64,000 nucleotides of DNA, taken from the NCBI RefSeq assembly GCF_019931145.1, contig NZ_JAIOUV010000002.1, forward strand, positions 62,001 to 126,000. The letters are read 5' to 3'. The position numbers and the translations under genes were made by a program. This DNA comes from Marinicella meishanensis (GTDB lineage Bacteria > Pseudomonadota > Gammaproteobacteria > Xanthomonadales > Marinicellaceae). Positions within the stretch are counted from its first letter, which is position 1, and the number at the start of each line of letters is the position of its first letter. Shown one piece after another: positions 9,120 to 55,333 of the stretch. The notes under the pieces are model-generated. The model had not been told where the DNA came from. It did no database searches and worked only from the letters and a program-made list of their open reading frames with translations.

Positions 9120-9134
9120 CAAACAAGGGTTGGC

Positions 9135-39799: not shown

Positions 39800-40823
39800 A
39801 TGAACAATGGTGTGATGAATAGATGCATGGGCCTGTGGTTCATCTGCATGGTGCCGCTGGGCAGCCTGGCACAAGAATACAGTTATGTTTGGGCCAACCA
39901 ATACCCGGCTTTGGCCGATCCCGAAATGGTGTGTTGCTATGATTTCGATGGCGACCAGCAGCTGGATGATTTCAACGGCGGTGTGATGCTGTCTTTACAA
40001 AGCCTGGTGTCTGAAGATTTTCAAGCCCTGGCTGATCAGCGAATCATCGACAACGCCCATGTGCGGGTGTGGCGCTGGGACCAATTGCCCGCCAGTGACG
40101 GGTCGGTGTCGTTGAGTATTCTGTTGGGGGATGTGAGCCAACCCAGGCCTGTCTTTGGCCGACCGCAGAGGTGGCCTGACCCAAGTGTTCATTGACCCGG
40201 CAGCAACCAGCCAATTCACCGGCACCATGACGGCCGGCGCCATCGATTTGTATGCTGAATCCTCGGTGTCGTTGTTTTTTGTGCCTTTGTTGGCCGCACA
40301 AATCAACACCCGCCTGCCGCAAGGCACCGTAGGCGCGGCCTTCAATGTGCCGCTGAATGAAGCCCGCATCAGGGGACAATTGGAACAAAACGAACCGGGT
40401 TGCCAAGGGGTGTGCAGTGACACTTTGATGGGCACCGATCCGGCCATTTTGGGGGCCCTGGAAATCAGTGGCTTGATCCATCATGCCGATGAGATGGATG
40501 CCTTGAACGAGGTTGCCGCCCAGTGCACCTGTGCCGGCATGGATCCCCAATTGCCGTTGATTGATTATGTGGAGGACAACCAAGGTCTGACTTTTTCCTG
40601 TAATTACACCGAGTTGGATGAAACCCTTTGTGATGACACCATTCCATTTTGTCAAACGATCGAAAGCCCCTGTGATTTCGCCGCCTTACTGGGCAGCTTT
40701 TATGATCAAGACACCAATGACAATGCCGTGACTGACAGCAAGTCGGTGGGCGGTTTGTTGGGCATTGCTGGGGCCACGGTCACGGGTGTGGAAGATTTGA
40801 TATTTGCCGATGATTTCGATTGA
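39800..40823 (+). pseudogene. Exported tagged protein with a one-base frameshift
   Basis: Two overlapping readings form one 340-residue protein if the base at 40136 is removed (GDVS becomes GDV-ANPGLSLADRRGG). The first part has a signal peptide (about 1-24), then VCCYDFDGDQQLDDFNG, an Asp-rich calcium-like loop. The second part (40137 on) is Cys-rich and ends DLIFADDFD, the shared tail of several exported proteins here. GAGGA lies 7 nt before the ATG. It may be a pseudogene, a phase-variable gene or a sequence error. Function unknown. It heads a run of three exported-protein genes. Confidence 0.7.
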
Positions 40824-40835
40824 TTGCTTTGATCT

Positions 40836-41528
40836 ATGAAGGGCTTGTTGACATGTGTTGCCTTGATTTGGACACCCACTTTGACCGCCCATCTGGATGC
40901 CGATCATCACCTCGATTATTTGAATGAGCGGATTGAGCAGCATCCCAATGATCCGAGCTTGTTTTTACAGCGCGCACAAATTCTTGCGGTGCATGGCGCC
41001 TGGCAACAAGCAGCCAGCGATTTGCACACCGCCAGCAGGGGCTTTGCCTTTGCTCCAGACATCCATTTGCACATGGGCTTGTTGTATGCCGAACAACAGC
41101 ACGCGGTCTTGGCCACCCAATATTTGACCCAGTTTCTCAGCAGCGAAGGGGTGGCGCAGTTTCCCAATAAACAAGCATTGGCAGCGGTCACCTTGGCAGA
41201 ATTGGCCAGCCAACAACAGCGACCTGCGGTGGCCGCTCAACATTATTTGCAGGTGTTGCAATGGCAGCGAAAGGCACCGGCTCACCTGTACTTGATCACC
41301 GCACAAACCCTGCAACAAAGCCGCGATCGCGAATCGGCCATGGCGGTGATCACGCAGGGTTTAGCAAGCTACCCAGCGCACCTGGGCTTGTTGGAATTGA
41401 ACATCAAGCTGGCCCAGCAAAGTGGTAACCAGGCCCAGGCCCAAGCAGCGCTTGATCGCCTGTTGCACCGTTTTCCCAACCACCCCAAGTGGCAAACCAC
41501 ACCGGACGCCCCCCATGCAGCACAATAA
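40836..41528 (+). CDS. Exported TPR-repeat protein
   Basis: A 230-residue protein with a signal peptide (about 1-18) and about five tetratricopeptide repeats (LFLQRAQILAVHGAWQQAASDLHTA, HLHMGLLYAEQQHAVLATQYL and later copies). It sits between the frameshifted exported protein (12 bases) and the phosphoesterase gene (14-base overlap), so the three are probably an operon. It probably binds protein partners in the periplasm; the partner is unknown. Confidence 0.75.
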   Translation: MKGLLTCVALIWTPTLTAHLDADHHLDYLNERIEQHPNDPSLFLQRAQILAVHGAWQQAASDLHTASRGFAFAPDIHLHMGLLYAEQQHAVLATQYLTQFLSSEGVAQFPNKQALAAVTLAELASQQQRPAVAAQHYLQVLQWQRKAPAHLYLITAQTLQQSRDRESAMAVITQGLASYPAHLGLLELNIKLAQQSGNQAQAQAALDRLLHRFPNHPKWQTTPDAPHAAQ

Positions 41529-42870
41529 GCACAAGCAAAGCCGGGTGTTGGCCTGGTCTTTGCTGGGCTGGCTGCTGAGCAACTGGGCACAAGCCAGTGA
41601 ACTGATCAGGGGCCCGTACATCCAAAACCAATCCCCCACCAGCGTCACCTTGCGCTGGCGCACCCATGGTTTGACCGACTCGGTGGTGATGTGGGGACTG
41701 GCACCAGGCCAACTCAATGAGTCGATCACCCAAGCCACCCCCACCACCGAACATGAGGTGACCATCACCGGATTAACCCCCAACCAGCGCTACCACTATG
41801 CCGTGGGCAGCAGTGCGGAAATACTGGCCGGCAATGATGCCAACCACGCCCTGACCATGCCACCGACACACGGCACCGCTCAACCACTTCGAATTTGGGT
41901 GTTGGGTGATTCGGGCACCGCCAACGCCAACGCCGCAGCGGTGCGAGATGCTTACTTGAATTTCAATGGCAACCAGCACACCCACCTGTGGCTGATGTTG
42001 GGTGACAACGCCTACTCCTCGGGCACTGAAGAACAGTATCAAGCCGCTGTGTTCGACATGTATCCCAGCCTGCTCAGGCAGTCCAGCTTGTGGCCGGTGA
42101 TCGGCAACCACGATGTCCACAACGCCAATTCACTGACCGGCACGGGGGTCTATTACGACATCTTCACCTTACCCAAGCAAGCCCGCACCACCGGTCACAG
42201 CACCGGCGTGGACTCGGGCAGTGAAGCTTATTATTCCTTCGATTATGGCAACGTGCATTTTGTGATGTTGGATTCGGTGTTTATTTCGGTGCCATTTCGC
42301 GCAGCCATGATCGATTGGTTGCAGGCCGATTTGATGATGAGCCAGGCGGATTGGACCATCGCCATGTGGCACCACCCACCCTACACCAAAGGGTCACACG
42401 ATTCGGACCTTGAGTCCAGACACATTTGGACCCGGGAGACGGTGTTACCCATCTTGGAACAACATGGCGTGGACTTGATCCTGGGTGGACACAGCCACTC
42501 GTATGAACGGTCATGGCTGATCGATGGGCATTACGGCTTGTCGCAGAGTTTTGATCCCCAACAGCATGTGTTGGATGGGACCAACGGCAATCCCTTTGCC
42601 GGTGAAACCTACTTTAAGCCCACGCTGGGTGCCGCACCGCACGAAGGGTCGGTTTATGTGGTCGCTGGCAGCTCCGGCAAAGTGGGTAACATCGAACCCA
42701 ACCCGCACCCGGCGATGCGCCATTTATTGGCCCTGCAAGAATTGGGCTCCTTGGTGATTGATGTCAGTGGTCATCACTTGTTGGTGCAGTTTTTGTTGGA
42801 CAATGGACAAGTCCAAGATGTGTTCCGCCTGACCAAACAAGACTTGATTTTTGCGACCACATTCAATTAG
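41515..42870 (+). CDS. Exported purple acid phosphatase-like metallophosphoesterase with DLIFA tail
   Basis: A 451-residue exported enzyme: signal peptide (about 1-28), a fibronectin-like N-terminal domain (about 30-120), then a metallophosphoesterase domain with GDSG, GDNAYSSG, GNHDVHN, MWHHPPY and GGHSHSYERS, the metal-binding set of purple acid phosphatases. It ends DLIFATTFN, the tail shared with other exported proteins. It probably hydrolyses phosphate monoesters outside the cytoplasm. ATG 41515 overlaps the TPR gene by 14 bases; the longer reading from 41422 lacks a signal peptide at its start. Confidence 0.88.
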   Translation: MQHNKHKQSRVLAWSLLGWLLSNWAQASELIRGPYIQNQSPTSVTLRWRTHGLTDSVVMWGLAPGQLNESITQATPTTEHEVTITGLTPNQRYHYAVGSSAEILAGNDANHALTMPPTHGTAQPLRIWVLGDSGTANANAAAVRDAYLNFNGNQHTHLWLMLGDNAYSSGTEEQYQAAVFDMYPSLLRQSSLWPVIGNHDVHNANSLTGTGVYYDIFTLPKQARTTGHSTGVDSGSEAYYSFDYGNVHFVMLDSVFISVPFRAAMIDWLQADLMMSQADWTIAMWHHPPYTKGSHDSDLESRHIWTRETVLPILEQHGVDLILGGHSHSYERSWLIDGHYGLSQSFDPQQHVLDGTNGNPFAGETYFKPTLGAAPHEGSVYVVAGSSGKVGNIEPNPHPAMRHLLALQELGSLVIDVSGHHLLVQFLLDNGQVQDVFRLTKQDLIFATTFN

Positions 42871-42881
42871 GACCAGACAAC

Positions 42882-42916
42882 ACCCATCAAGGGTGCTCTG
42901 GGCACCCTTGATGGGT
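42882..42916. terminator. Bidirectional hairpin between convergent genes
   Basis: A perfect 15-bp stem (ACCCATCAAGGGTGC and its complement) with a 5-base loop, 12 bases after the phosphoesterase stop and about 20 bases beyond the end of the convergent exported-protein gene. It lacks a T-run but is very stable. Confidence 0.6.
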
Positions 42917-42936
42917 CTGGCATGTGTGACTTCACA

Positions 42937-43419
42937 TCAACGGCGGGTCAACCAAAACACCCGTCGCAGCACGGCGGCCACGCCATCGGGCAACTCGGCC
43001 GCATCATAGGTGGTGTCATTGACCGTCACCGCCCCTTTCAATTCAACGCCTTGGTCATCCGCCATGATGTTCAATCCGGTGAAACTGACGTCCATGCTGC
43101 CACTGATCGACGCCAACACAAACGCCCCATCGGCGGTGGTGGAGATTTGCCCATTGCCGCGACTGGTTTGCTTGGACACCACGCCAGTCAAGCTGGCTTC
43201 TTGGTCACCATCACCTGGATGAAAATCATTGAACTCGGTCAATGAGGTGCCGGTGAATTGTCCGGCTTCCAGGCGACCACTTTTGGTCACCGTGTATGAG
43301 CCCGATTGGTCATCCACCACTGTGGTCATGCGGGTGATGTCAAATCCCGCCCATGCGCTGGATGCGAGGAACAGGCCCGATAAAATAACCAAAGTGAATT
43401 TGCTGGTCAGTATTTTCAT
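42937..43419 (-). CDS. Exported protein of unknown function
   Basis: A 160-residue protein with a signal peptide (about 1-24, SSAWA cleavage). The mature part is Thr/Ser/Asp-rich with beta-like repeats (TTVVDDQSGSYTVTKSGRLEAGQFTG) and a basic C-terminus. CAGGAG lies about 6 nt before the ATG. I recognise no family. It converges on the phosphoesterase gene. Confidence 0.65.
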   Translation of the reverse strand: MKILTSKFTLVILSGLFLASSAWAGFDITRMTTVVDDQSGSYTVTKSGRLEAGQFTGTSLTEFNDFHPGDGDQEASLTGVVSKQTSRGNGQISTTADGAFVLASISGSMDVSFTGLNIMADDQGVELKGAVTVNDTTYDAAELPDGVAAVLRRVFWLTRR

Positions 43420-43510
43420 GTTGATCTCCTGAATGGTAGTTTATAAATCAATTAACGTAGGTCTGCGGCTTGTTGCCTCAGATACCCATTCAACGCCTGC
43501 AGTGACATAG

Positions 43511-43548
43511 GGTTGACAGGCGAAAAAAAAGTTTTTGGGCTGTCAACC
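43511..43548. repeat. 9-bp inverted repeat upstream of the sigma factor gene
   Basis: GGTTGACAG (43511-43519) and CTGTCAACC (43540-43548) form an inverted repeat around an A-rich/T-rich spacer, in the 248-base intergenic region between the minus-strand exported protein and the plus-strand sigma factor. It may be an operator or a hairpin; its TTGACA half also resembles a -35 box. Confidence 0.35.
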
Positions 43549-43667
43549 ACTGCACCTCCCATCCGTTGTATGATTATCAGACTCGCCATGAAACCATGAT
43601 TGCAGTAAGCACCACATACCACCAACATGAACACCCACAACGGGCCACAAATCGACTGGAACAGGGC

Positions 43668-44198
43668 ATGTCAGAACAGGCATTGAACCGGTCGTTGGAC
43701 GACTTTTTGCGGCGGCATCAAAACGAAGCCTACGCCATCGCCCTGGTCAGCGTGAAGCAACCGGCCGATGCCCTGGATGTGGTCCAAGAAGCGATGCTGT
43801 CTTTCATCAAAAGTTACCGCCTCAAGCCCAGCAGTGATTGGCGTCCGCTGTTTTTTCGCGTGCTGCAAAACAAAGTCAATGACCACCACCGCCGTCAAAA
43901 AAGTTGGCTTCGGCATTTTTTCAGTGGTCATGACCAAACCGATGTGGCGGCCGAACAAGCCAGTGAGGCGCCTTCTCCTTTGTCTGCGCTGAACATCCAG
44001 GACCAAGGCAATGAGGTGATCGCCGCCATTCAGGACTTGCCCAGCCAACAACAGCAAGTCATTTTGTACCGCCATTGGCAAGAACTGTCGGTCCAAGAAA
44101 CCGCCGACGTCATGCAAATCAGCCCGGGCAGCGTCAAAACGCACCTGTTTCGGGCCACCCAAAAAATCAAATCTTTGCTCGGAAAATCCCATGCCTAA
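43668..44198 (+). CDS. ECF RNA polymerase sigma factor
   Basis: A 176-residue sigma-70-family ECF factor: region 2 (about 20-95, with VKQPADALDVVQEAMLSFIKSYRL) and region 4 (about 125-172, with LPSQQQQVILYRHWQELSVQETADVMQISPGSVKTHLFRA). ATG 43668 (MSEQALNRSLDD) gives normal ECF length; ATG 43596 is an alternative. It overlaps the next gene by 8 bases. The downstream gene is the likely anti-sigma partner. Confidence 0.9.
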   Translation: MSEQALNRSLDDFLRRHQNEAYAIALVSVKQPADALDVVQEAMLSFIKSYRLKPSSDWRPLFFRVLQNKVNDHHRRQKSWLRHFFSGHDQTDVAAEQASEAPSPLSALNIQDQGNEVIAAIQDLPSQQQQVILYRHWQELSVQETADVMQISPGSVKTHLFRATQKIKSLLGKSHA

Positions 44199-44544
44199 AG
44201 AACCCACCCATGACCCGATCAAACAAGCACTGGATGCCTTCAGGGACCAAGTTGATGTGGCCACTCAGGTCAAACTCAATGAGGCCCGCCATACGGCTCT
44301 GGCCCAAGCCGATCGGACGCCCAGACGACGGTGGCTGCTGCCAGCGGCCGGCGTGGCCACCATGGCAGCCGTCACCTTCACTTGGGCGCTGCTCAAACAC
44401 AGCCCCAGCGAATGGCCCGAACAAGATCCTTCGATTTTTGCCGACTTGGAGTTGTTGGCCGAGGAAGCCGACACCGATTTCTATCAGGATCTTGAGTTCC
44501 TGACCTGGTTGGATGACAACGACTTGATGGAATCGGATATATGA
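44191..44544 (+). CDS. Putative membrane anti-sigma factor (small, acidic tail)
   Basis: A 117-residue bitopic protein: a cytoplasmic helix-rich part (1-46), one membrane helix (about 50-66) and an acidic extracytoplasmic tail (FADLELLAEEADTDFYQDLEFLTWLDDNDLMESDI). Its place after an ECF sigma gene and its topology suggest an anti-sigma factor, although no zinc-binding anti-sigma motif is seen. It overlaps both neighbours by a few bases. Confidence 0.6.
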   Translation: MPKEPTHDPIKQALDAFRDQVDVATQVKLNEARHTALAQADRTPRRRWLLPAAGVATMAAVTFTWALLKHSPSEWPEQDPSIFADLELLAEEADTDFYQDLEFLTWLDDNDLMESDI

Positions 44545-44855
44545 AACGCGGCTGGCTCAACAACTTGGTGGGCATGCTGATGGTGCACTCGGCGATGGGC
44601 GGCACCGCAGCAGACAACCAACCGGCCACCCGAAGTGAGGCCCTGACTGAGCAAACGGCCGAACAAGAGGCCGATGACATCCAACCCGACAAAGCCTTGT
44701 TGCTGTTTTTGGCTGAATGGGATGAAACCCAAGACGGCCAGTGGTTGCAACCCACAGACTTTGCCGCGGATTCTTCATTCACCCAACAATTGGAATCGCC
44801 CCAACCACCTGACAACACACTGAACAACCATGAATACAATCCTGATCATCATTAA
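44541..44855 (+). CDS. Small exported protein of the sigma factor operon
   Basis: A 104-residue protein with a signal-like N-terminus (MKRGWLNNLVGMLMVHSAMGGTAA) and a soluble, acidic, Gln-rich remainder. It overlaps the preceding gene by ATGA and the DUF3106 gene by 26 bases. No family recognised. Confidence 0.55.
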   Translation: MKRGWLNNLVGMLMVHSAMGGTAADNQPATRSEALTEQTAEQEADDIQPDKALLLFLAEWDETQDGQWLQPTDFAADSSFTQQLESPQPPDNTLNNHEYNPDHH

Positions 44856-45282
44856 TCTGCTGCTGGCCTCGGCCGTTTGGTCCCAAGACTGGGACGAGTT
44901 GAATGCCGCCCAACAACAAACCCTGGCGCCCTTTGCTGCCGAATGGTCCACCTTACCTGAGGCACAACGGCAACAATTGGTCAAAGGTGCCGACCGCTGG
45001 CATGGTTTGAACAAAGAACAAAAAAGAACGGCCCTGACACGCCTGAACAAATGGCAAGCCATGAGCCCGGAAGAGCGGCGCAAAATTCGCCAACGTTACC
45101 AAAAATTCAAGCAGTTGCCCCCGGCCCAACGGGCCCGCTTGTGGCGCTTACACCAAAAATACAAGCAATTGACCCCCAAACAACGCCAAAAGCTGCGCCA
45201 AAAATTTGAACAATTGACCCCAGAACAACGGCAAAAATTGCTCAAGCGGCAACAAAACAAAGCCAAAAAACGGCGCCAGTGA
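44830..45282 (+). CDS. DUF3106 exported basic protein
   Basis: A 150-residue exported protein with a signal peptide (about 1-18) and four to five copies of a short Arg/Lys/Gln-rich helical repeat (LSPEERRKIRQRYQKFKQLPPAQRARLWRL type), matching DUF3106. Such proteins commonly follow ECF sigma genes in Xanthomonadales and are thought to sit in the periplasm. It closes the four-gene operon. Confidence 0.85.
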   Translation: MNTILIIINLLLASAVWSQDWDELNAAQQQTLAPFAAEWSTLPEAQRQQLVKGADRWHGLNKEQKRTALTRLNKWQAMSPEERRKIRQRYQKFKQLPPAQRARLWRLHQKYKQLTPKQRQKLRQKFEQLTPEQRQKLLKRQQNKAKKRRQ

Positions 45283-45289
45283 AGCGTGG

Positions 45290-45815
45290 CTAAGGCGCCA
45301 TCTGCGGCTCAAATGAGTCGGCAAAAATCAAATCAGTGGCCCCGCCTCCCACGCCCAAGCCAATGTTGCCGGCGCCATAATCCGCGTCAATCAAGATGCC
45401 GTAGGTGCCTGCAGAATAGGCATATTGGCCATTGGCATGACCGGGGAAGTTGACATCACCGGTTTGCTCGGCGGCATCATAAGCCCCGGTCAGCACCCAG
45501 TTGGCGCCACCGGTGATGCTGAAGTTATGGTGATGACCACAGCCACCAATCCGCACTTGCCCACCGCTGTGGGTGATCACCAAGGGGTTGCTCGAATCAC
45601 GCAGCGGTCAGTTGGCCAATGCGATAAAAACTGTAATGTCCAGCGGGGATGTATAAACGGTCAAGGGTGCTGAAATTCACCTGTGGGAAACTGGCCTGAA
45701 TGTCAATGAAGTAAGCGCCTTCACAAGTGTCCCGCGGGGGTAAGGTGAACATGCTCAAGCCGCCAGCCAACAACGACAGTGGCCACCACAACAAAACACC
45801 CAAGCCAATTTTCAT
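45290..45815 (-). pseudogene. Decayed exported beta-helix-like protein with shared C-terminal tail
   Basis: The N-terminal part (from ATG 45815) has a signal peptide and YIPAGHYSFYRIGQLTAA, then hits TGA at 45597-45599. The continuing frame carries RDSSNPLVITHSGGQVRIGG, a typical beta-helix strand pattern, then a short Gly-rich region and the tail DLIFADSFE-PQMAP. The two frames overlap and join after a one-base shift. The product is far shorter than a normal parallel beta-helix protein, so a deletion joined an early repeat to the C-terminal tag. Its function, if any, is lost. Confidence 0.6.
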
Positions 45816-45893
45816 GCCAGACTCCACAGTGCAAAGAACCATCTTAACCAAAATTGACCGCCTGTTTTTCAAGCAATGCCCTCTTATTGCCGC

Positions 45894-46544: not shown

Positions 46545-46547
46545 GGC

Positions 46548-47471: not shown

Positions 47472-47525
47472 GGTGCGGAAAACTTTATGATCTGCGCCAT
47501 TTTAACTGAGAAATGACAGTTGCAA

Positions 47526-47553
47526 CTTGAAATCTGGGCTGAACACCCTATTT
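47526..47553 (+). promoter_or_regulatory. Sigma-32 (heat shock) promoter of htpG
   Basis: CTTGAAA (47526-47532) and CCCTATTT (47546-47553) are separated by 13-14 bases, matching the RpoH consensus CTTGAA-N13/15-CCCCATTT. The start site would fall about 18 bases before the htpG ATG. A separate TATAAT at 47565-47570 could serve sigma-70. Confidence 0.75.
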
Positions 47554-47564
47554 TGCTGTCATCT

Positions 47565-47570
47565 TATAAT
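47565..47570 (+). promoter_or_regulatory. Sigma-70 -10 box 7 nt before the htpG start
   Basis: TATAAT is separated from the ATG at 47578 by 7 bases and no ribosome site is visible. Transcription from it would start at the ATG, giving a leaderless message. Confidence 0.45.
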
Positions 47571-47577
47571 CACAACC

Positions 47578-49473
47578 ATGACAACCATGACCAATACTGC
47601 TGAAAAATTTGAATTTCAAGCGGAAGTGAATCAGGTGCTCGACCTGGTGATTCACTCGCTGTATTCCAACAAAGAAATCTTTTTGCGAGAATTGATCTCC
47701 AACGCCTCAGACGCCTGTGACAAATTGCGTTTTGAAGCGATCAAAAACCCAGAACTGTTGGGTGACGAACTGGCCATTCAGGTGGAATTTGATGCCGAGG
47801 CCAAAACCATCACCATCACCGACAACGGCATCGGCATGACCCGCGACGAGGTGATCAGCAACATCGGCACCATCGCCAATTCCGGTACCAAAAAATACCT
47901 CCAGTCGATCGCCAAAAAAGACCGCGATGAGGCCAACTTGATTGGTCAATTCGGGGTCGGTTTTTATGCCTCATTCATCGTGGCTGAACAAGTTGAATTA
48001 CGCACCCGCAAAGCCGGCGAAAAAGAAGCCGTTAGCTGGAAATCAGATGGCAAAAATGACTTCACCTTGGAACCCATTGACAAGGCAGGACATGGCACCG
48101 AGATCATCTTGCACTTGCGGGAAGAAGAGGCTGAGTTCGCCGACAATTACCGCCTGCGTTCTTTGATCAAAAAGTATTCCGAGCACGTGGCCTTCCCGAT
48201 CAAAATGCTGGAAGTCACCTACCCTGAAAAAGACGATGAGGGCAATGAGATCCCGGCCAAAACCCCAGAATATGAAGTGGTCAATGACGCCACTGCCTTA
48301 TGGAAGAAAGCCCCTGCCGATGTCTCTGAGGATGACTACCAGGCGTTTTATAAACAAATCTCCAATGATTTCAATGAGGCCGCTTTCTGGTCACACAACC
48401 ACATCGAAGGCACCCAAAGCTACAGCAATTTGTTGTATGTTCCAAGCAAGTCGCCCTTCAACATGTTCCAAAATCCCGAAGACCGCGAGGGCCTGAAATT
48501 GTTCATCAAACGGGTGTTCATCATGGATGCGGCCAAAGAGCTGTTGCCCAACTACCTGCGCTTTGTCAAAGGGGTGGTGGATTCCAATGACCTGCCATTG
48601 AACGTGTCGCGTGAACTGTTGCAAGACAACCCCTTGTTGCAAAAAATCAAGTCCGGTCTGGTCAAACGTGTGTTGGGCATGCTGAAGAAAAAATCCCTGG
48701 ACAACGACGTCTATGGCAATTTTTGGCAAGAGTTTGGCGATACCTTGAAAGAAGGTGTGGTGGAAGATTTTGGCAACCGCGATGCGGTGCTGAAACTGTT
48801 GCGCTTTGCCTCAACCCAGAATGAGGACGCCACCGAAAACGTGTCGTTGGATGACTACATCAGCCGCATGCAGGACCCACAAGACAAGATATATTACATC
48901 ACTGGTGAGTCCTATTCGGCGGTGAAAAACTCACCGCATTTGGAACTGTTCAAGAAAAAAGGCGTGGAAGTGCTGTTGATGCACAGCCGCATCGATGAAT
49001 GGATGATGGGTCATGTGCAAGAGTATGACGGCAAAAAATTCCAGTCTGTGGCCAAAGGCAAGCTGGACCTGGGCCAAGACGAGGAAAGTGAAAAAGAACC
49101 TTCTGAAGCCGACAAATCATTCTTGGAAAAGGTTCAAAAACACCTCAAGGACCACGTCAGTGAAGTCACGGCTTCCACCCGATTGGTTGATTCTGCCAGT
49201 TGCTTGGTGATGGACGAACATGCCATGGCCATCCACATGCAAAAACTGATGGAACAAGCCGGTCAGGCCATGCCAGGTCAACTGCCCGCATTGGAACTGA
49301 ATCTGGATCATCCATTGGTGCAGCACATTGAGCACATTGACAACGAAGACCAATTCAAACAGTGGTCAGAATTGCTGTTCGAACAAGCCTTGTTGGCTGA
49401 AGGCGGTCAGTTGAAAAATCCCGCCGATCATGTCAGCAAAATGAACCGCTTGATGCTGGACATCCTGAAGTAA
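47578..49473 (+). CDS. htpG: Molecular chaperone HtpG (Hsp90)
   Basis: A 631-residue Hsp90: GHKL ATPase domain with NASDACDKLRF, DNGIGM and GQFGVGFYASF; a middle domain with the catalytic Arg in VSRELLQDNPLL; and a C-terminal dimerisation domain. ATG 47578 follows a sigma-32 promoter; ATG 47587 is an alternative and the reading from 47527 would lie within the promoter. A strong terminator follows. Confidence 0.97.
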   Translation: MTTMTNTAEKFEFQAEVNQVLDLVIHSLYSNKEIFLRELISNASDACDKLRFEAIKNPELLGDELAIQVEFDAEAKTITITDNGIGMTRDEVISNIGTIANSGTKKYLQSIAKKDRDEANLIGQFGVGFYASFIVAEQVELRTRKAGEKEAVSWKSDGKNDFTLEPIDKAGHGTEIILHLREEEAEFADNYRLRSLIKKYSEHVAFPIKMLEVTYPEKDDEGNEIPAKTPEYEVVNDATALWKKAPADVSEDDYQAFYKQISNDFNEAAFWSHNHIEGTQSYSNLLYVPSKSPFNMFQNPEDREGLKLFIKRVFIMDAAKELLPNYLRFVKGVVDSNDLPLNVSRELLQDNPLLQKIKSGLVKRVLGMLKKKSLDNDVYGNFWQEFGDTLKEGVVEDFGNRDAVLKLLRFASTQNEDATENVSLDDYISRMQDPQDKIYYITGESYSAVKNSPHLELFKKKGVEVLLMHSRIDEWMMGHVQEYDGKKFQSVAKGKLDLGQDEESEKEPSEADKSFLEKVQKHLKDHVSEVTASTRLVDSASCLVMDEHAMAIHMQKLMEQAGQAMPGQLPALELNLDHPLVQHIEHIDNEDQFKQWSELLFEQALLAEGGQLKNPADHVSKMNRLMLDILK

Positions 49474-49493
49474 AGCAATTCATGGATGGGATC

Positions 49494-49526
49494 AAAAAGG
49501 CCGGTCAACAAGACCGGCCTTTTTTG
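49494..49526. terminator. Bidirectional rho-independent terminator after htpG
   Basis: An 8-bp stem GGCCGGTC / GACCGGCC with a 5-base loop, T-run on the plus strand and A-run before the stem, so it also ends transcription of the convergent DUF3185 gene. Confidence 0.9.
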
Positions 49527-49558
49527 TTGGCATGCCAATTAGGGCAAATGGTGGTGGG

Positions 49559-49759
49559 TTACTTTTTCAACAACAACACCAAACCCAGAACCGCTGACAC
49601 CCCTCCGCCAATCAAATACCACATCGTTTGGTCGCTGTAGCGGCCGGTCACGGCTTCGGTCACGGCTTCCAAAGGTGCCTCCGTGGCATTCAAGCCAAAA
49701 TAGGCCAGAATGGCACCGGCAATTAATAAGATCAGTCCTAACAGTTTGTTGGTTTTCAT
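49559..49759 (-). CDS. DUF3185-type small membrane protein
   Basis: A 66-residue protein with two membrane helices (about 5-23 and 45-64) separated by a short loop (TEAPLEAVTEAVTGRYSDQT). AGGAGG lies 4 nt before the ATG at 49759, so the longer basic reading upstream is rejected. The middle TGRYSDQTMWYLIGG matches DUF3185. Function unknown. Confidence 0.8.
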   Translation of the reverse strand: MKTNKLLGLILLIAGAILAYFGLNATEAPLEAVTEAVTGRYSDQTMWYLIGGGVSAVLGLVLLLKK

Positions 49760-49818
49760 GGTTCCTCCTGTAAAAAGTGATTGATGTAGTAATGGAACAA
49801 GTTGATGACGCAGGGTCA

Positions 49819-50301
49819 TCAACGGTTTAAATCTTCTTCGTCTTCGCAAACCGCCTTTTTGGCTTCGAATCCCACCCGCAGAATCAAGAAATTCAAGGTG
49901 GCTATTAAGATGGCAATCTCAAACCGCTGCCAAGCCACCGCCATGCCGATGGCGCCGGTGTTCCAGATGCTGGCAGCATTGGCCAAACCCGTGACCTTCG
50001 AGTCGTCTTTGACTTTCAAAATGGCACCACCACCGATGAAACCGATGCCGGTGACAATCCCGGCCATGAATTTACCCATGCCTTCAGCGCCACCCAACAC
50101 TTCCAAGGCCAGCAAGGTGCAAGAACAGGTGGCCACGGCAACCAGTGGATAGGTGCGCATGCCCGCGCCTTGAGATTTTTTTTCGCGGTTGTAAGCGATG
50201 GGCAAAGTCAGCACCATGGCCACCAAGATCAAGCCAAAATGTTTGAGGATCAATGACACATTGATGTAGTCATTGAGGTCGAATGCAGTGGCTTCAGTCA
50301 T
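49819..50301 (-). CDS. MgtC/SapB family membrane protein
   Basis: A 160-residue protein with four or five membrane segments and the MgtC core (REKKSQGAGMRTYPLVAVATC, GIVTGIGFIGGGAILK, GLANAASIW). It has the membrane domain but no C-terminal ACT-like domain, so it resembles SapB/YhiD rather than full MgtC. It follows the hemerythrin gene on the same strand. Confidence 0.9.
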   Translation of the reverse strand: MTEATAFDLNDYINVSLILKHFGLILVAMVLTLPIAYNREKKSQGAGMRTYPLVAVATCSCTLLALEVLGGAEGMGKFMAGIVTGIGFIGGGAILKVKDDSKVTGLANAASIWNTGAIGMAVAWQRFEIAILIATLNFLILRVGFEAKKAVCEDEEDLNR

Positions 50302-50356
50302 GGGTGGTTTGTCTCTGATTCAGTGTTGGTGAGGCTGTGATACGCAGTCAGGCGTC

Positions 50357-50797
50357 TCATTCTGTTCTGGCTTGTTGCATGGCCGCCAGATATTCATGCC
50401 CCAATTGTTTGGCGCGGTCATCACTGAGTTGATCTTTGGCCACCGGAAAACAGTCTTTTTCCTCTTCCGCCAAATGGTGTTTCACCTTGTCAGCCAGTTT
50501 CTTGGCATGATGCAACCATGCGGGAGAATCGTATTCAGTGTCATCCAGTGTCGCCACCAATTCATCGATTTCCTGGTGTTCAGCAATGCCGTGCCGGGCC
50601 GCTTTTTGTGTACTGTCCAGCTTGATCAATGGCACATAGAAATACCGCTCTTCGGCATCGGCGTGGGCCGCCAATTCTTGTTTGAGGGCGGTAAAGGCCT
50701 GACGCCGCTCGCGCGAATCACCCGAGGTTTGGACCATCTGATCGGCCAGTTTCCGCTGGATGTGATGATCATGTTCGATGGATTGATAGACTTTCAT
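50357..50797 (-). CDS. Hemerythrin-domain protein
   Basis: A 146-residue four-helix HHE protein. Iron ligands are likely in IEHDHH, HADAEERYFYVPL, HQEIDELV and HHLAEEEKDCFP. It probably binds oxygen or iron, or serves in nitrosative/oxidative stress. CAGGAG precedes the ATG. Confidence 0.87.
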   Translation of the reverse strand: MKVYQSIEHDHHIQRKLADQMVQTSGDSRERRQAFTALKQELAAHADAEERYFYVPLIKLDSTQKAARHGIAEHQEIDELVATLDDTEYDSPAWLHHAKKLADKVKHHLAEEEKDCFPVAKDQLSDDRAKQLGHEYLAAMQQARTE

Positions 50798-50903
50798 GGA
50801 TACTCCTGTTGTTCATGTTAATTGGCCCTCAATCCTAAACAAGCCGCCATCAATCTGACGTGAAAAAGAAGTGAAAGGCCCGGAGCTGGGCGCTCACATT
50901 CTG

Positions 50904-50937
50904 TTGACCTGGTTTGAATATGATAATTATTCCTATC
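50904..50937 (+). promoter_or_regulatory. Possible promoter and Fur-like site upstream of the carbonic anhydrase
   Basis: TTGACC (50904-50909) is followed by an AT-rich palindromic stretch TGATA-N8-TATCA (50921-50938), 13 of 19 positions matching the E. coli Fur consensus by eye. This suggests metal control of the carbonic anhydrase, but the match is weak. Confidence 0.25.
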
Positions 50938-50955
50938 AGCAATTCGAAGAGAGAC

Positions 50956-51741
50956 ATGAAAAAGTTATTCCTTATTTCTGCCATGACCATCGCCACCACC
51001 ACGGCCTCCGCTGCCGAAGTCTGTCAGGGCTTTGGTCCTCAGACACCACGTGACATTGACAGTCACCTGGGCACCAATGACCGCATTTTTGCCTTGGCCG
51101 ATGATTACCAGAACATGAACTTGTGCAACATCCATTTTCATGTCAACGCCGAACACAAGGCCAAAGACTTTGCCATTTTGGCCAAAACCGATGACGGTCA
51201 AGCCAACGGCTATCAATGTGCCATCAGCCAAAACCTGACCAAAGCCGAATTGAAAGCGCCCGAGAAAAACATGTGTCAGGGCGTGGCACCCGGTGATACC
51301 ATCGAAATGCATTGGGTCCACACTTCGTGTGACGTCGCTCCCGGCCCTGGTTTGGGTTCTTGCTTGTCAGACGCCTGTGCCAACCCCACTTTGCGCGTAG
51401 AAACCCAGGTGTTCACTTTGGTTAATGACCCCAATGCCTTGAGCTTTGATGAACTGCGATATGCCGGCGCTTTGCAAAGTGATGATTACCACCAAGCCAA
51501 AAACATCCCCAACAACACCGGCACGCCGGTGGTGTTCGCCGGGTCCACCACCGGACCTTCATTCACCGAGCAAACCTGTTCACCATTGCAAGTCACCTGG
51601 AGTGTGCGCCCACAATGCGCCAAGTTGGACATCAACAGCCTGAGCCAATGGTGTGAAAACAACCCATTTGATGAAAACAAAGCCCATGGCGTGCGTGAAT
51701 TGGTGACCAATCCAGCCTTGTTGTCGGAAATCACCCCTTAA
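50956..51741 (+). CDS. Delta-class carbonic anhydrase, exported
   Basis: A 261-residue exported enzyme: signal peptide (about 1-20), then CQGFGPQTPRDI and the metal-binding segment LCNIHFHVNAEHK (Cys57, His60, His62, Glu66, His67), followed by DTIEMHWVHTSCDV, PGLGSCLSDACANP and QVTWSVRPQCAKLDINSLSQWC. This is the delta carbonic anhydrase pattern known from diatoms and some bacteria. ATG 50956 follows GAGAG. It probably hydrates CO2 in the periplasm. Confidence 0.82.
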   Translation: MKKLFLISAMTIATTTASAAEVCQGFGPQTPRDIDSHLGTNDRIFALADDYQNMNLCNIHFHVNAEHKAKDFAILAKTDDGQANGYQCAISQNLTKAELKAPEKNMCQGVAPGDTIEMHWVHTSCDVAPGPGLGSCLSDACANPTLRVETQVFTLVNDPNALSFDELRYAGALQSDDYHQAKNIPNNTGTPVVFAGSTTGPSFTEQTCSPLQVTWSVRPQCAKLDINSLSQWCENNPFDENKAHGVRELVTNPALLSEITP

Positions 51742-51771
51742 TTTCTTTTCTTTTTAACCCCCAAGAAACTT

Positions 51772-51799
51772 GGGCCTGATTTTTCAGGCCCTTTTTTTT
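51772..51799 (+). terminator. Rho-independent terminator after the carbonic anhydrase gene
   Basis: An 8-bp stem GGGCCTGA / TCAGGCCC with a 4-base loop is followed by eight T residues, about 30 bases after the stop. Confidence 0.9.
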
Positions 51800-51811
51800 G
51801 GGTGCAAGCAA

Positions 51812-52222
51812 TCAAGAAAAATAAGCCAGCATGCCAACCACCAACAACCCCAGCAGGCTGACGATGCTCAAGCTGAACATGACGGCGCGGGCGGTGGACC
51901 AAGCCAGGTAGTAACAAACCATGTGCAACACCCGGGTAACCAAATAAGCCAGCATCAAGCGGTTGACCCACAGCGGATCGGCGGCACTGAGCACCGCGAA
52001 CAAAAACAGCAGGATCATCACCCCCATGGTTTCATTGGTGTTGGCATGGGCCCGTGATAAACGGAATAACAGGTTTTTATGACTGCTTTCAATCGGATAG
52101 CCCGGTGGGTGCTTGAGTTTGATGGCCATGGCATCGAACAACAGCAATTGAAACAATGACAAAGCAGCCGTCATACCCAAGACCAGCACAGCTGTCGGGT
52201 AACTCAATAAAATTTCAGACAT
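51812..52222 (-). CDS. MAPEG-family membrane protein
   Basis: A 136-residue protein with four membrane helices (about 8-28, 60-80, 85-103, 112-132) and FRLSRAHANTNETMGVMI, which matches the MAPEG signature with RxxRAHxNxxE. The start at 52222 has AGGAG 6 nt upstream; ATG 52228 abuts the site. It may be a glutathione-dependent membrane enzyme. It follows cls. Confidence 0.85.
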   Translation of the reverse strand: MSEILLSYPTAVLVLGMTAALSLFQLLLFDAMAIKLKHPPGYPIESSHKNLLFRLSRAHANTNETMGVMILLFLFAVLSAADPLWVNRLMLAYLVTRVLHMVCYYLAWSTARAVMFSLSIVSLLGLLVVGMLAYFS

Positions 52223-52236
52223 CAACATCTCCTAGA

Positions 52237-53700
52237 TCACAATATGGGTGAAATCAAACGGGCCAGTTTTTCGATGAACACCTTGACCACCGAGCGCTGT
52301 TCCCAGGCATCGACACTGAGCTGTTTGGCCCCATCCAGATCATGTTCAAAGGTGTCGCTCAACTTGGTCGCCATCGCCTCGTCATAGATCATCACATTCA
52401 CTTCGAAGTTCAATTCAAAACTGCGTTCATCAAAATTGGCGGTACCCAAAACACTCAAGAAATCATCCACCACCATGGTTTTGGCATGCAAGAAGCCTTT
52501 GGTGTACTTATACACCGACACCCCAACCAGCATCAATTCATAATAAAAAGACTGGGCCGCGGCGTTGACCACTTTGCTGTCCGAGTGGTTGGGCACCAAA
52601 ACCCTCACCGCAACACCACGCAACACCGCCATTTTCAGGGCTTTGATCAGTGCCGGGTTGGGAATGAAATAAGGGGTGGTGATCAAGATGGTCCGTTCAG
52701 CAGTGTGGATGGCGTGCAAGATCGAAAACAGAATCGATGGTTGGGGTGAATCCGGGCCACTGGCCACCACCTGCATCATGGTGTATTCGTCTTCGGATAA
52801 ATTTTCAATGCCTTTGGGCAACAGCTCGTCTTCGATTTCCAGGTTTTGTCCGGCACAAAAGTTCCAATCATTCAAAAAGATGTTCTGTAAATAGGCCGCT
52901 CCTTGGCCCTCAATCCGCAAATGGGTGTCTCGCCAGTATAGAGGATCAATGCCACCGGTGTTGTTGTATTCATCACCGACGTTGATGCCACCCACATAAG
53001 CCACACAGCCATCGATCACCACGATTTTGCGGTGGTTGCGGTAATTCAAGCGCTCGGTGAAAGCAAACCATTTGATTTCCGCAAAAGGATGGGCTTCGAT
53101 GCCGGCGGCCCGCATGCGTTTGAGCACCTGTCCGGGCAAACTCAAACTGCCGTAATCGTCATAGATGAACCGCACCTGGACCCCTGACTTGGCTTTCTTG
53201 ATCAGCCGTTGAATCAATTCACTGCCAATGTCGTCGGCTTTGAAAATGTAGTACTCCAGATGAATGGTGCGTTCGGCTCGCTCAATGTCCTGAAACAGCT
53301 GCGGGAATTTTTCCTCACCATTTTGCAGCAAAGTCAGTTTGTTTTTGACCGTCAACCGACTGCAACCGTCGTGGTAGATCATCTGGGTCAGGCCATGAAA
53401 CTGCTTCAGCTGCTGCTGGTGTTGTTGCATGACCCGCAAGGATTCGGCGCTGAAACGGGCTTGATAGGCTTCCAAAAACTTTTGGTTCTCGGTCAGCTTC
53501 ACGGCATACATTTTGCGTTTGCGGCGCTTCACCCCAAAAATGAAATACAGCACCAAACCCACCACCGGAAACACGTAGACGGTGAACAGCCAGGCCGACG
53601 CCCGCGAGGAAATGGTGTATTGATGGATGATTTGTAAGGTGACGTATATCAACAGCAGCCAATAGGCATAATAGGTCAGGGTCAGCCAACTGAAATTCAT
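52237..53700 (-). CDS. cls: Cardiolipin synthase
   Basis: A 487-residue phospholipase-D-family enzyme. Two N-terminal membrane helices (about 5-27 and 35-57) precede two HKD motifs: HRKIVVIDG (first) and HAKTMVVDD (second), each with GTANFDERS-type or GGINVGDEY following. It condenses two phosphatidylglycerols to cardiolipin. It sits 14 bases before the MAPEG gene. Confidence 0.95.
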   Translation of the reverse strand: MNFSWLTLTYYAYWLLLIYVTLQIIHQYTISSRASAWLFTVYVFPVVGLVLYFIFGVKRRKRKMYAVKLTENQKFLEAYQARFSAESLRVMQQHQQQLKQFHGLTQMIYHDGCSRLTVKNKLTLLQNGEEKFPQLFQDIERAERTIHLEYYIFKADDIGSELIQRLIKKAKSGVQVRFIYDDYGSLSLPGQVLKRMRAAGIEAHPFAEIKWFAFTERLNYRNHRKIVVIDGCVAYVGGINVGDEYNNTGGIDPLYWRDTHLRIEGQGAAYLQNIFLNDWNFCAGQNLEIEDELLPKGIENLSEDEYTMMQVVASGPDSPQPSILFSILHAIHTAERTILITTPYFIPNPALIKALKMAVLRGVAVRVLVPNHSDSKVVNAAAQSFYYELMLVGVSVYKYTKGFLHAKTMVVDDFLSVLGTANFDERSFELNFEVNVMIYDEAMATKLSDTFEHDLDGAKQLSVDAWEQRSVVKVFIEKLARLISPIL

Positions 53701-53801
53701 GGTTGTTTGTGTGTCGGGTTAATGGTTGGGTTGTGGATAGGTTACCACAATGGCCCTGATGGCTTGGTGACAATAGCCAGTGCAAGTCGCTCGGTATTTG
53801 T

Positions 53802-53807
53802 TACAAT
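53802..53807 (+). promoter_or_regulatory. -10 box 6 nt before srkA ATG (leaderless mRNA candidate)
   Basis: TACAAT is followed by six bases (GCGCCC) and the ATG at 53814, with no ribosome site. Transcription would start at the A of ATG. Confidence 0.55.
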
Positions 53808-53813
53808 GCGCCC

Positions 53814-54791
53814 ATGCCAGCTACCGACCCACACCCGTTTGACGACCTGAACCCAGAATTGATCTTGGACGCCATCCAAAACCGGGGCTTGGCGGTGGAT
53901 GGCCGGGTCAATGCCCTGAACAGTTATGAAAATCGGGTGTATCAAATCGGCATTCAGGATCAACCTCCGGTGATCGCCAAGTTTTATCGCCCCCAGCGCT
54001 GGAGCCAAGCACAGATCCAAGAAGAGCATGACTTTTGTCAGGCAATCAAACGCCACGACATCCCAGTGGTCACGCCCATGCAAGATGCGCAAGGCAGCAG
54101 CCTGTATACCCACGCCGGTTTCTGCTTCAGCCTGTTCCGGCAACAAGGTGGCCATGCGCTGGAACTGGACCAGCCACAACACCTGGCCATCATGGGCCGG
54201 ACCCTGGCTCGCTTACACCGGATTGGTGCAGTCGAACCCTTCGCCCACCGCCCGCCATTGAATGCCCAGACTTTTGGCCATGACTGCATGCAATTTGTGG
54301 CAGACCAGTTCATTCCCATGGAACATCAAAAAACCTACCAACAATTGGCCACGCAGATCCTGCCACTGATCGAAACCGCCTTGAGTGGCGCCCAAACCAT
54401 TCGGGTGCATGGTGATTTGCATGTAGGCAACATCTTGCTGCGTGATGAGGTGCCGCACCTGGTCGACTTTGATGACGCCCGCCAAGCGCCGGCCATCCAA
54501 GACATATGGATGTTGTTATCCGGCGAGCCCGATGAGCAGCAAGCGCAATTGGACACCATCATCGCCGCTTATCAAGAATTTCGTGATTTCCCATTCCATG
54601 AGTTACCCATGATCGAATCGCTGCGCACTTTGCGCTTGATTCATCACACCGCCTGGCTGGCCCGTCGCTGGGATGATCCGGCGTTCCCACCGGCTTTTCC
54701 TTGGTTTGACACCCCCAGTTATTGGCACCAACACCTGCAAGACCTGAACCACCAATTGGCCGCCCTGCAAAATCAATCAAAGTTGCTGTAA
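53814..54791 (+). CDS. srkA: Stress response kinase A (YihE/SrkA family)
   Basis: A 325-residue choline-kinase-fold Ser/Thr kinase. Features: NSYENRVYQIGI (ATP-binding Gly-rich strand), catalytic RVHGDLHVGNIL and metal-binding LVDFDDA. It fits E. coli SrkA/YihE, which counters stress-induced cell death. Its end overlaps the convergent exported-protein gene by 19 bases. Confidence 0.92.
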   Translation: MPATDPHPFDDLNPELILDAIQNRGLAVDGRVNALNSYENRVYQIGIQDQPPVIAKFYRPQRWSQAQIQEEHDFCQAIKRHDIPVVTPMQDAQGSSLYTHAGFCFSLFRQQGGHALELDQPQHLAIMGRTLARLHRIGAVEPFAHRPPLNAQTFGHDCMQFVADQFIPMEHQKTYQQLATQILPLIETALSGAQTIRVHGDLHVGNILLRDEVPHLVDFDDARQAPAIQDIWMLLSGEPDEQQAQLDTIIAAYQEFRDFPFHELPMIESLRTLRLIHHTAWLARRWDDPAFPPAFPWFDTPSYWHQHLQDLNHQLAALQNQSKLL

Positions 54792-55333
54792 AACACCGTG
54801 TCCGGCAACACGAAGACGTCATCCCACAAGCCAAAAGGCACATCTGGATTGCCCGTTTCTGCGGTTTGCAAATAAATCCGCAATTCACCGGTGGCGGCAT
54901 TGGCCGGGGCTTGACTCAAACCAGCCATGTCATGCCACTGATCTTTGGGGGCGCCGAACACCCCTGAGACCATGTCTGACCGGCCCACTTCAAGCTCACC
55001 GGCGTCATACCAAAAGATCTGATACCAGGCCCAAGGCACAGGGCTGGCCGCTGGAACTTTGTAACTGGCCCCAGTCAGGTACCAATGACCAGGCGTCACC
55101 ACAAAGGGATCGGAGATGGCGGGAAAACTGCTGTTGTTGTTGAACACCCCGGTGTTGAGCAGACTGCCCTGACCGGAAATCGGCGCCCCTTCATCACTGG
55201 CATGGGTGATGGTGGTGAAGGCGAACCAGCCGCTCACGTCGGTGTCAAATGTGCCGTTGGCCAATAAATTTTGGGCGCTGGCCGGCGTCATCAGACCCAG
55301 CCACATCAGCCCCACATACCTCATCAGTTTCAT
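54773..55333 (-). CDS. Exported carbohydrate-binding-like protein with shared tail
   Basis: A 186-residue exported protein: signal peptide (about 1-20), NLLANGTFDTDVSGW (typical start of CBM4/9- or laminin-type jellyroll domains), a beta-rich body, and the tail DTVFYSNFD. AGGAG lies 7 nt before the ATG. It probably binds sugars or cell wall outside the cell; there is no enzymatic motif. It converges on srkA. Confidence 0.75.
   Translation of the reverse strand: MKLMRYVGLMWLGLMTPASAQNLLANGTFDTDVSGWFAFTTITHASDEGAPISGQGSLLNTGVFNNNSSFPAISDPFVVTPGHWYLTGASYKVPAASPVPWAWYQIFWYDAGELEVGRSDMVSGVFGAPKDQWHDMAGLSQAPANAATGELRIYLQTAETGNPDVPFGLWDDVFVLPDTVFYSNFD

Follow-up and report, generated by a model that had tools for sequence, protein, structure and literature searches.

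The window analysed here, a 64,000-nucleotide stretch of a Marinicella meishanensis contig, encodes four exported proteins that carry a similar short tail at or near their C-termini. The first, at 39800-40823 (+), is broken by one frameshift (frames 39800-40195 and 40155-40823), with a signal peptide, by eye, in the first frame and the tail DLIFADDFD followed directly by the stop (40794-40823, +) in the second; it matches no Pfam family. The second, at 41515-42870 (+), is a purple acid phosphatase-like exported enzyme (Metallophos, Pur_ac_phosph_N) ending in DLIFATTFN and a stop (42841-42870, +); its relative in genome G004 ends DIIFIDGFENNL. The third, at 45290-45815 (-), is likewise broken by one frameshift, with a signal peptide, by eye, in the first frame and the tail in the second; here DLIFADSFE (45334-45308, -) is followed by five more residues (PQMAP) before the stop at 45290, and so is not strictly terminal. 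The fourth, at 54773-55333 (-), is a small exported protein with a carbohydrate-binding domain match below the cut-off, ending in DTVFYSNFD and a stop (54802-54773, -), the most divergent of the four tails. The two broken genes may reflect assembly errors rather than decay. The window also holds an Xps-like type II secretion system (T2SS) cluster at 2004-12519 (-), hereafter T2SS-A, whose best GspF match is the XpsF model, though below its cut-off, and whose protein at 4190-4903 has no T2SSC or PDZ match.

We first asked whether these tails could arise by chance. A DNA pattern for the tail gave 5 matches in the window against a mean of 0.43 in 100 shuffles, none of which reached 5; three of the five are terminal tails described above, and two are not the ends of genes. 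In the whole genome (G000), a profile of the four tails gave 46 matches at E<=10, the four themselves included (the first at C8:102773-102820). Of 30 of these loci, 28 lie 0-6 residues from the stop of a long frame, one is internal (locus L017), and one is not a gene (L032); of the other 16, 14 stretches hold a C-terminal tail and two do not (L083, L088). Further, in a 400-kb sample (twenty 20-kb stretches, 10% of the genome), a loose tail pattern ends 8 of 355 frames where 0.75 is expected from its internal density. In total, the genome shows 53 distinct frame ends of the form D-x-[IL]-F-x-x-x-F-[ED], one of which may not be a gene. The original prediction that unrelated exported proteins of the window share a C-terminal tail is therefore confirmed, and the phenomenon is much larger than was stated. 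However, the tail is not strictly terminal: it can be followed by some residues, be internal, be tandem, or lie near the start of the mature protein.

We then sought to determine whether the tail is associated with export. Of 49 distinct tail frames of G000 with an intact 5' end, 45 pass a home-made, lenient signal-peptide test (five frames cut at a locus edge and four that were no tails were dropped by eye). The other four are two frameshifted genes, L027, in which a signal is visible by eye, and L097, which remains unexplained; one carrier (L298) looks like a lipoprotein. To test the condition under which the tag idea would fail, namely that the tail is no more common in exported than in other proteins, we compared sampled frames of G000: 6 of 98 frames classed as signal-peptide frames end in the tail, against 2 of 266 others (p=0.006). 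Of those two, one has a signal peptide by eye and the other looks like a chance match. These Sec signals are as required of type II secretion cargo, whereas substrates of type I secretion (RTX) lack an N-terminal signal peptide.

The tail did not correspond to any of the known sorting signals with which we compared it. No NCBIfam or Pfam model matched it, although some of these queries were very short, which lowers sensitivity. Like PEP-CTERM/exosortase and IPTL-CTERM/XrtH signals, it is a lineage-restricted C-terminal tag on many exported proteins with one presumed reader, but the tails end in FE or FD with no hydrophobic stretch, transmembrane helix or basic cluster, and exosortase (PF09721) has no match in G000 at E<=1e-5. 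GlyGly-CTERM, the substrate tag of rhombosortase, is known on T2SS cargo of Vibrio (PMC13393428); judged on tail sequences alone, ours have no Gly-Gly, hydrophobic helix or basic end. The T9SS C-terminal domain also directs proteins out of the cell, but it is a conserved, folded domain of ~80 residues in Bacteroidota, whereas here only about nine residues are shared, in Pseudomonadota, and the sequence upstream of them differs. We found no description of the tail in print: literature searches for the letters of the short and long tails found 0 papers, and topic searches listed none whose title or opening of the abstract describes it, within an open-access literature (including PMC7949064, PMC12369372, PMC7691419 and PMC11981180) that cannot prove absence.

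Because many copies share a nearly identical short end, we considered whether a DNA- or RNA-level element (a repeat, terminator or mobile sequence) merely happens to be translated. Ile and Phe codons in the tail do lean to ATT and TTT more than in the genome sample (Ile ATT 29, ATC 18, where the sample has 33% and 60%; Phe TTT 73, TTC 29, where it has 55% and 45%). By contrast, over the 53 ends synonymous codons still vary at every position (first Asp GAT 29, GAC 24), and neither flank is conserved (mean commonest-base frequency 0.39 upstream, 0.33 downstream). We regard this possibility as remote.

We next examined how widely the tail is distributed. Among 369 sampled Gammaproteobacteria, it was found only in Lysobacterales, where it recurs as IFADGFE, as the original prediction had suggested. 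This search, like the GspC-negative genomes described below, also serves as a specificity control: 364 of the 369 genomes lie outside the order, and two of these have a single hit at E<=0.02, one of which, when read, is not a tail, while the other lies in a 32-residue frame and was not resolved. A lengthened form, IFADGFESGDTSAWSxTVP, gives 74-149 profile matches in each of five Acidobacteriota genomes. The distribution there is all-or-none, with 2 of 149 Acidobacteriota genomes having >=58 matches and the rest at most one.

Because the original prediction had proposed that the tail might be read by the complete T2SS of the window, we asked which secretion system accompanies it. As expected of type II secretion cargo, all tail-rich Lysobacterales examined have a T2SS: of 22, 19 have two GspD over the cut-off and three have one plus fragments of another. 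All 22 have another T2SS secretin besides the small one, which speaks for reading by T2SS-A. By contrast, genomes with a single secretin over the cut-off, of about T2SS-A size (G019, G025, G030, G034, G039 and G044), show no tail match at E<=1. The sorting of secretins into two kinds rests on size and operon content rather than on a tree. Reading by T2SS-A is thus not supported, and we consider it very unlikely. The tail instead tracks a second system, T2SS-B, a gspC-gspD-gspE-gspF operon next to ftsEX with a PDZ-bearing GspC, which in this genome lies outside the window at about C9:118617-124073. The original interpretation is accordingly supported in part: the tail is a shared tag on otherwise unrelated exported proteins, covered by no NCBIfam or Pfam model, but the proposed reader is not favored.

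To quantify this link, we searched the same 299 Lysobacterales genomes for GspC (TIGR01713, E<=1e-6) and for tails. GspC is present in 81 of 87 genomes with >=4 tail matches (tail-rich) and in 46 of 212 others (Fisher p 3e-32). This co-occurrence is not corrected for phylogeny, and part of it is shared ancestry; further, 100 of the 127 GspC hits, that of G000 included, are below the model's curated cut-off. The six tail-rich genomes without GspC are five drafts of 180-470 contigs that are 60-94% complete, and G072, a good genome (97% complete) with seven tail matches. As a control machine, exosortase is present in 42 of 87 tail-rich genomes and 50 of 212 others (odds ratio 3); together with its absence from the matches in G000, this led us to reject it as the reader.

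Two further tests were made after the link was noticed. First, of 22 genomes that became tail-rich only with a more general profile, 21 have GspC at 1e-6 (19 at 1e-15). Second, two sampled genomes that appeared to be exceptions use a variant tail, IFxDRFE, and its profile found >=4 matches in 23 of the 34 GspC-positive (E<=1e-15), tail-poor genomes, against 0 of 46 evenly chosen GspC-negative ones (p 4e-12). The 23 all belong to one family (f9), and two of them supplied the profile. Within families, at E<=1e-15, 10 of 12 GspC-positive genomes of family f12 are tail-rich against 0 of 20 sampled GspC-negative genomes, and in family f2 the figures are 2 of 2 against 0 of 21. Similarly, signal-peptide frames with the tail, 6 of 98 in G000, are 3 of 66 in GspC-positive G067 and 0 of 63 in GspC-negative G069. 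However, eleven strongly GspC-positive genomes still have fewer than four tail matches, and ten f2 genomes with weak GspC hits (1e-13 to 1e-6) are tail-poor. We also looked to Acidobacteriota for an independent replicate: in six genomes with the lengthened tail, the same GspC model hit only one at E<=1e-4, on a 5-kb contig, and six of the 25 tail-poor genomes had only partial hits in the PDZ range. There, the reader is something else or too divergent to see.

Our preferred explanation, held with moderate confidence, is that the tail (about D-x-[ILV]-F-x-x-[GDNSR]-F-[ED], usually within 0-14 residues of the C-terminus) is a short linear sorting motif carried by Sec-exported proteins that are cargo of T2SS-B in Lysobacterales. 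In this view, the flexible end would dock in the periplasm onto T2SS-B, most plausibly on the periplasmic part of GspC (HR plus PDZ domain) and/or the secretin N-domains, and so mark the protein for passage. The analysis itself establishes a conserved end motif on exported proteins, variation in codons but not in residues, and strong co-occurrence with this GspC in one order; that the end is exposed, that T2SS-B physically reads it, that the PDZ is the docking site, and that the outcome is export rather than later retention on the surface are inferences from sequence. Most tails that we read are at or near the protein end, where a PDZ ligand has its free C-terminus in the groove, but extra residues, internal copies and tandem copies occur, and the internal and tandem copies do not fit a strict C-terminal-carboxylate ligand. 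Further, the tail changes from DGFE (in G163) to DRFE (in G048 and G067) with almost the same PDZ sequence, so that, by eye, no PDZ-tail co-variation is seen.

Precedents for such recognition exist in single substrates. In the Dickeya T2SS, pectate lyase PelI contacts the GspC and GspD proteins OutC and OutD through an exposed nine-residue loop, loop 3 (PMC7949064), and OutC carries a PDZ domain (PMC12369372); this is, however, an internal loop of one protein and part of a composite signal, not a linear motif shared by dozens of unrelated proteins. The PDZ of EpsC/OutC is needed for a subset of substrates, among them VesB, which depends on the PDZ of EpsC, but the signal of VesB lies in an Ig fold of one substrate, and the authors write of a lack of a linear universal signal (PMC12369372).

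Alternatively, the tail could be a surface-retention tag: T2SS-B would be needed for export, but the tail would be read outside, holding the proteins on the cell surface by binding an outer-membrane or matrix receptor or by processing. By eye, the carriers look like surface or extracellular proteins, and tandem copies, as in L209 and L093, suit a binding motif that gains by avidity. In Wenzhouxiangella AB-CW3, no proteolytic activity was found in the medium, and the proteases were assumed to be surface-anchored (PMC7691419). This reading would also explain the tails of Acidobacteriota without this GspC. By contrast, it leaves the strong link to GspC indirect, and no receptor candidate came up in analyses that were not directed at finding one. 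We consider retention possible but less likely than export.

How T2SSs choose their cargo is a long-standing question, and two recent papers state that no common linear signal is known (PMC7949064, PMC12369372). A nine-residue motif shared by dozens of unrelated proteins and tied to one T2SS type is a candidate for such a label and is directly testable; it would let the cargo of T2SS-B be listed from sequence, and would explain how a cell with two T2SSs sorts between them. Even if the tag serves surface retention, it is a large sorting class in two phyla that we could not find described. More tentatively, the motif may be the first short linear substrate signal of a T2SS, read by a GspC-PDZ system that co-exists with an Xps-like system and telling the cell which exported proteins belong to which, with a lengthened form serving the same purpose, through another reader, in some Acidobacteriota. 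In this reading, the motif would descend from, or mimic, the first segment of a jelly-roll domain and dock by strand addition.

The resemblance to a jelly-roll domain also raises the possibility that the tail is a structural relic or cap, the first segment of such a domain left at protein ends with a local structural or stability role and no machine. In Chloroflexota the same letters, DLIFADGFESGNLSAWSS, open a concanavalin-like domain, and the Acidobacteriota tail matches its first ~20 residues. However, this reading does not predict the GspC link, the distribution in Acidobacteriota is all-or-none, and the tails follow unrelated upstream sequences and are conserved as residues; we consider it unlikely. 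Structure prediction for the phosphatase-like protein from a two-sequence alignment gave a useless model (mean pLDDT 42). The Chloroflexota domain gave a usable predicted core (mean pLDDT 71.5) of concanavalin-like fold, but almost all of its first 36 residues, the motif included, are below pLDDT 50, so this model does not show that the motif is the first strand. The fold matches of this domain include binding domains of botulinum toxins as distant fold relatives.

We first asked whether the four C-terminal tails of the original prediction exist, and all four are present in the sequence, so that the observation holds. Two of the host genes, which are neighbours (39800-40823 on the forward strand and 45290-45815 on the reverse strand), are each broken by one frameshift, with the signal peptide in one frame and the tail in the other, reflecting either decay or assembly error. 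The third tail is followed by PQMAP before the stop. The fourth, DTVFYSNFD, is the most divergent; it scored well in a profile search of the genome, although it is itself one of that profile's four rows.

We then sought to determine how many such tails the genome encodes. A profile of the four tails gave 46 matches at E<=10 in G000, the 3.99-Mb genome to which the window belongs. Of the 30 loci read first, 28 end a long frame within 0-6 residues; of the other 16, 14 of the stretches fetched later hold a C-terminal tail. A sample of twenty 20-kb stretches held further tails that this first profile had missed. Counting all distinct ends seen, 53 frames carry the strict motif, one of which, a 69-residue frame, may not be a gene; scaling the sample would give an inferred total of about 70 per genome. 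By eye, carriers include CSLREA and right-handed beta-helix-like proteins and long beta-rich proteins; the comparison with Pfam covered the window proteins only. Of 49 carriers with an intact 5' end, 45 pass a simple, lenient signal-peptide test, and the other four are the two frameshifted genes, locus L027 (in which a signal is visible by eye) and locus L097 (unexplained); five frames cut at a locus edge and four listed frames that are no tails were set aside by eye. One carrier, L298, looks like a lipoprotein.

To test whether the tail is commoner in exported than in cytosolic proteins, a comparison on which the tag idea had been staked beforehand, we applied one fixed pattern to equal samples of three genomes. 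In G000, 6 of 98 signal-peptide frames and 2 of 266 others end in the tail (one of these two is visibly exported, and the other looks like chance); in G067, the counts are 3 of 66 and 0 of 247. By contrast, G069 has 0 of 63 and 0 of 248. Further, the motif is 9-24 times denser at the C-terminus than inside proteins in G000, G067 and a further genome, G048 (8 observed against 0.75 expected, 4 against 0.46, and 10 against 0.41, respectively), and not in G069 (0 against 0.23).

Because a near-identical ending could also arise from a DNA-level element, we examined the nucleotides of the 53 ends. Synonymous codons vary (for example, GAT 29 and GAC 24 at the first Asp) and the flanks show no conservation, although Ile and Phe codons lean to ATT and TTT more than in the genome sample. 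We take the unit of selection to be a peptide; the codon lean makes a DNA-level element slightly less improbable than we first judged, but it remains very unlikely.

The motif usually lies 0-14 residues from the end of the protein. It is also found internally (loci L017; L036, the same protein as L100; L055; L110; L120; L151; and L172), near the start of a frame (L059), in two tandem copies at a C-terminus (L093), in three tandem copies near the start of an exported protein (L209, from the same genome as G010), and directly after a signal peptide in L146. It therefore behaves like a movable linear motif with a strong preference for free ends.

We next asked where the motif occurs. A search of the class with profile A4 found a match at E<=0.02 in 4 of 369 gammaproteobacterial genomes: G000, one other of the order (G024, an internal copy), and two single hits outside the order, of which the one that could be read is not a tail. 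Profile A4 leans to the Marinicella form, so variants elsewhere could be missed. Within the order, the Marinicella-biased profile A3 matched 67 of 299 genomes at E<=0.1. In the family and genus labels used here, we infer that f1 g1 includes Marinicella marina, f12 g54 Dokdonella fugitiva, f3 Pseudofulvimonas gallinarii, and f9 a Wenzhouxiangellaceae MAG. In Acidobacteriota, five genomes reached through exact-letter hits (G663-G667; loci L222, L213, L176, L162 and L146) give 74-149 matches at E<=0.5 of a lengthened tail, IFADGFESGDTSAWSxTVP-stop. Of the 22 loci fetched from them, 19 end a frame within 7-16 residues after FE (one of these, L265, was read as L162); L262 has the motif after a signal peptide, L287 lies 25 residues from the end of a short frame, and L290 was not resolved. 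In a sample of 149 genomes of that phylum, including G663, on which it was centred, only two genomes carry the tail, each with at least 58 matches, which is the number scored, and the rest have at most one; with the further genome G684, the tail-bearing Acidobacteriota span 58 to 149 matches. In Chloroflexota (L223, L221, L154, L155, L145, L150 and L180), the same letters open a predicted jelly-roll domain, concanavalin-like with an alginate lyase/galectin-like fold; the one copy scanned has no Pfam match above cut-off.

Because the original prediction proposed that the tail is a sorting or secretion tag, perhaps read by the complete type II secretion system (T2SS) of the same stretch or by a processing enzyme, we searched for the secretin GspD in 46 genomes (one of which, G668, proved to be the same genome as G010). 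Of 22 tail-rich Lysobacterales, 19 have two T2SS secretins over the cut-off, and three (G004, G007 and G009, in 260-530 contigs) have one plus fragments of another. Of 17 genomes then called tail-poor, two have none, six have one and nine have two; seven of those nine later proved tail-rich with better profiles, leaving G032 and G035. The second system of G000 is a gspC-D-E-F operon (contig C9; locus L312 15617-19850 and locus L313 42-1073) upstream of ftsE-ftsX, without pseudopilin genes directly beside it. The same order of genes is seen in the stretches of G001, G002, G003, G006, G012 and G163. Its GspC has T2SSC and PDZ domains, whereas the window's system is Xps-like and its 4190-4903 protein matches neither. 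XpsC of Xanthomonas is described with HR and 2P domains (PMC11981180).

To test this link at scale, we scored GspC and the tail in the same 299 Lysobacterales genomes. The GspC model TIGR01713 hits 127 at E<=1e-6, of which 27 are over the curated cut-off (G000 itself is below it), and a general tail profile, A7, gives >=4 matches at E<=1 in 87 (about 32 candidates at most were scored per genome). Both are found in 81 genomes, the tail only in 6, GspC only in 46, and neither in 166. The six are G072 (97% complete, 130 contigs) and G059, G118, G177, G178 and G211 (180-470 contigs, 60-94% complete). Of the 22 genomes that are tail-rich with A7 but were not listed with A3, 21 have GspC at 1e-6 and 19 at 1e-15. 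A patchy control machine, exosortase, gives an odds ratio of 3, where GspC gives about 49. The exosortase search also revealed a short exosortase-like protein, possibly XrtH, in 92 of the 299 genomes, with most frames of ~175-300 aa matching only the C-terminal part of PF09721.

We then examined the exceptions. At E<=1e-15, 113 genomes have GspC, and 34 of them had fewer than four A7 matches, mostly in genus g9 of f9. Samples of G067 and G048 showed a variant tail, [IL]FxDRFE, on exported proteins. A profile of this variant plus five general tails (A8) was run on these 34 and on 46 of the 166 GspC-negative, tail-poor genomes chosen at even steps, and gave >=4 matches in 23 of 34 and in 0 of 46 (four of the 46 had one match). 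The 23 all belong to f9 (22 of g9 and one of g61), and two of them are the source of the profile, so this is close to one evolutionary observation; the effort was also unequal, covering all 34 positives but only 46 of 166 negatives. GspC-positive genomes that still have fewer than four matches are G032, G056, G090, G123, G130, G157, G176, G204, G219, G229 and G256.

None of these counts is corrected for phylogeny, but the two characters can be followed within families. At E<=1e-15, they go together within f12 (10 of 12 GspC-positive genomes against 0 of 20 sampled negatives) and f2 (2 of 2, G098 and G236, against 0 of 21), although ten further f2 genomes with weak hits of 1e-13 to 1e-6 are tail-poor. 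In f8 the picture is mixed (2 of 6 GspC-positive; 0 of 5 sampled negatives), and G072 and G211 have tails without GspC. In f1, the one genome without any T2SS secretin match, G031, also has no tail match.

Together, these data show a large class of C-terminal motifs that marks exported proteins in Lysobacterales and in some Acidobacteriota, and of which our literature searches found no description. In Lysobacterales, it lies largely inside the set of genomes with a T2SS whose GspC has a PDZ. The interpretation in the original prediction is thus partly supported: the tail does mark exported proteins, but it follows a second T2SS rather than that of the window. We take the motif, at about even confidence, as a sorting motif of the second system's cargo. 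The motif's presence on exported proteins and its co-occurrence with this GspC are observed from sequence, whereas binding of the tail by the system and its effect on secretion are inferred. The PDZ is only the most attractive putative docking site. PDZ domains are the domain class that reads peptide ends. In published work, the PDZ of EpsC/OutC is needed for part of the cargo (PMC12369372). Yet in a PDZ-range alignment of GspC from 50 loci, the sequence hardly differs between a genome with DGFE tails (G163) and two with DRFE tails (G048 and G067), and in Acidobacteriota the GspC model finds one of six tail-bearing genomes. A role in surface retention is less likely in our view but a serious rival; the authors of a study of Wenzhouxiangella AB-CW3 assumed surface-anchored proteases because none was active in the medium (PMC7691419); on re-examination we hold it slightly less likely than at first. 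The same is true of the boldest reading, in which the motif would be the first short linear substrate signal of a T2SS, because the test with the variant profile rests on one family.

Two further features were seen in the DNA examined. In G000, positions 9446-10458 of locus L312, which also holds part of the gspC-D-E-F operon, are DNA between genes whose frames repeat the same peptide several times, a tandem repeat. Within the window, the frame at 50914-51741 on the forward strand has a strong match to delta carbonic anhydrase (PF10563, E 2e-74), a family first known from diatoms.
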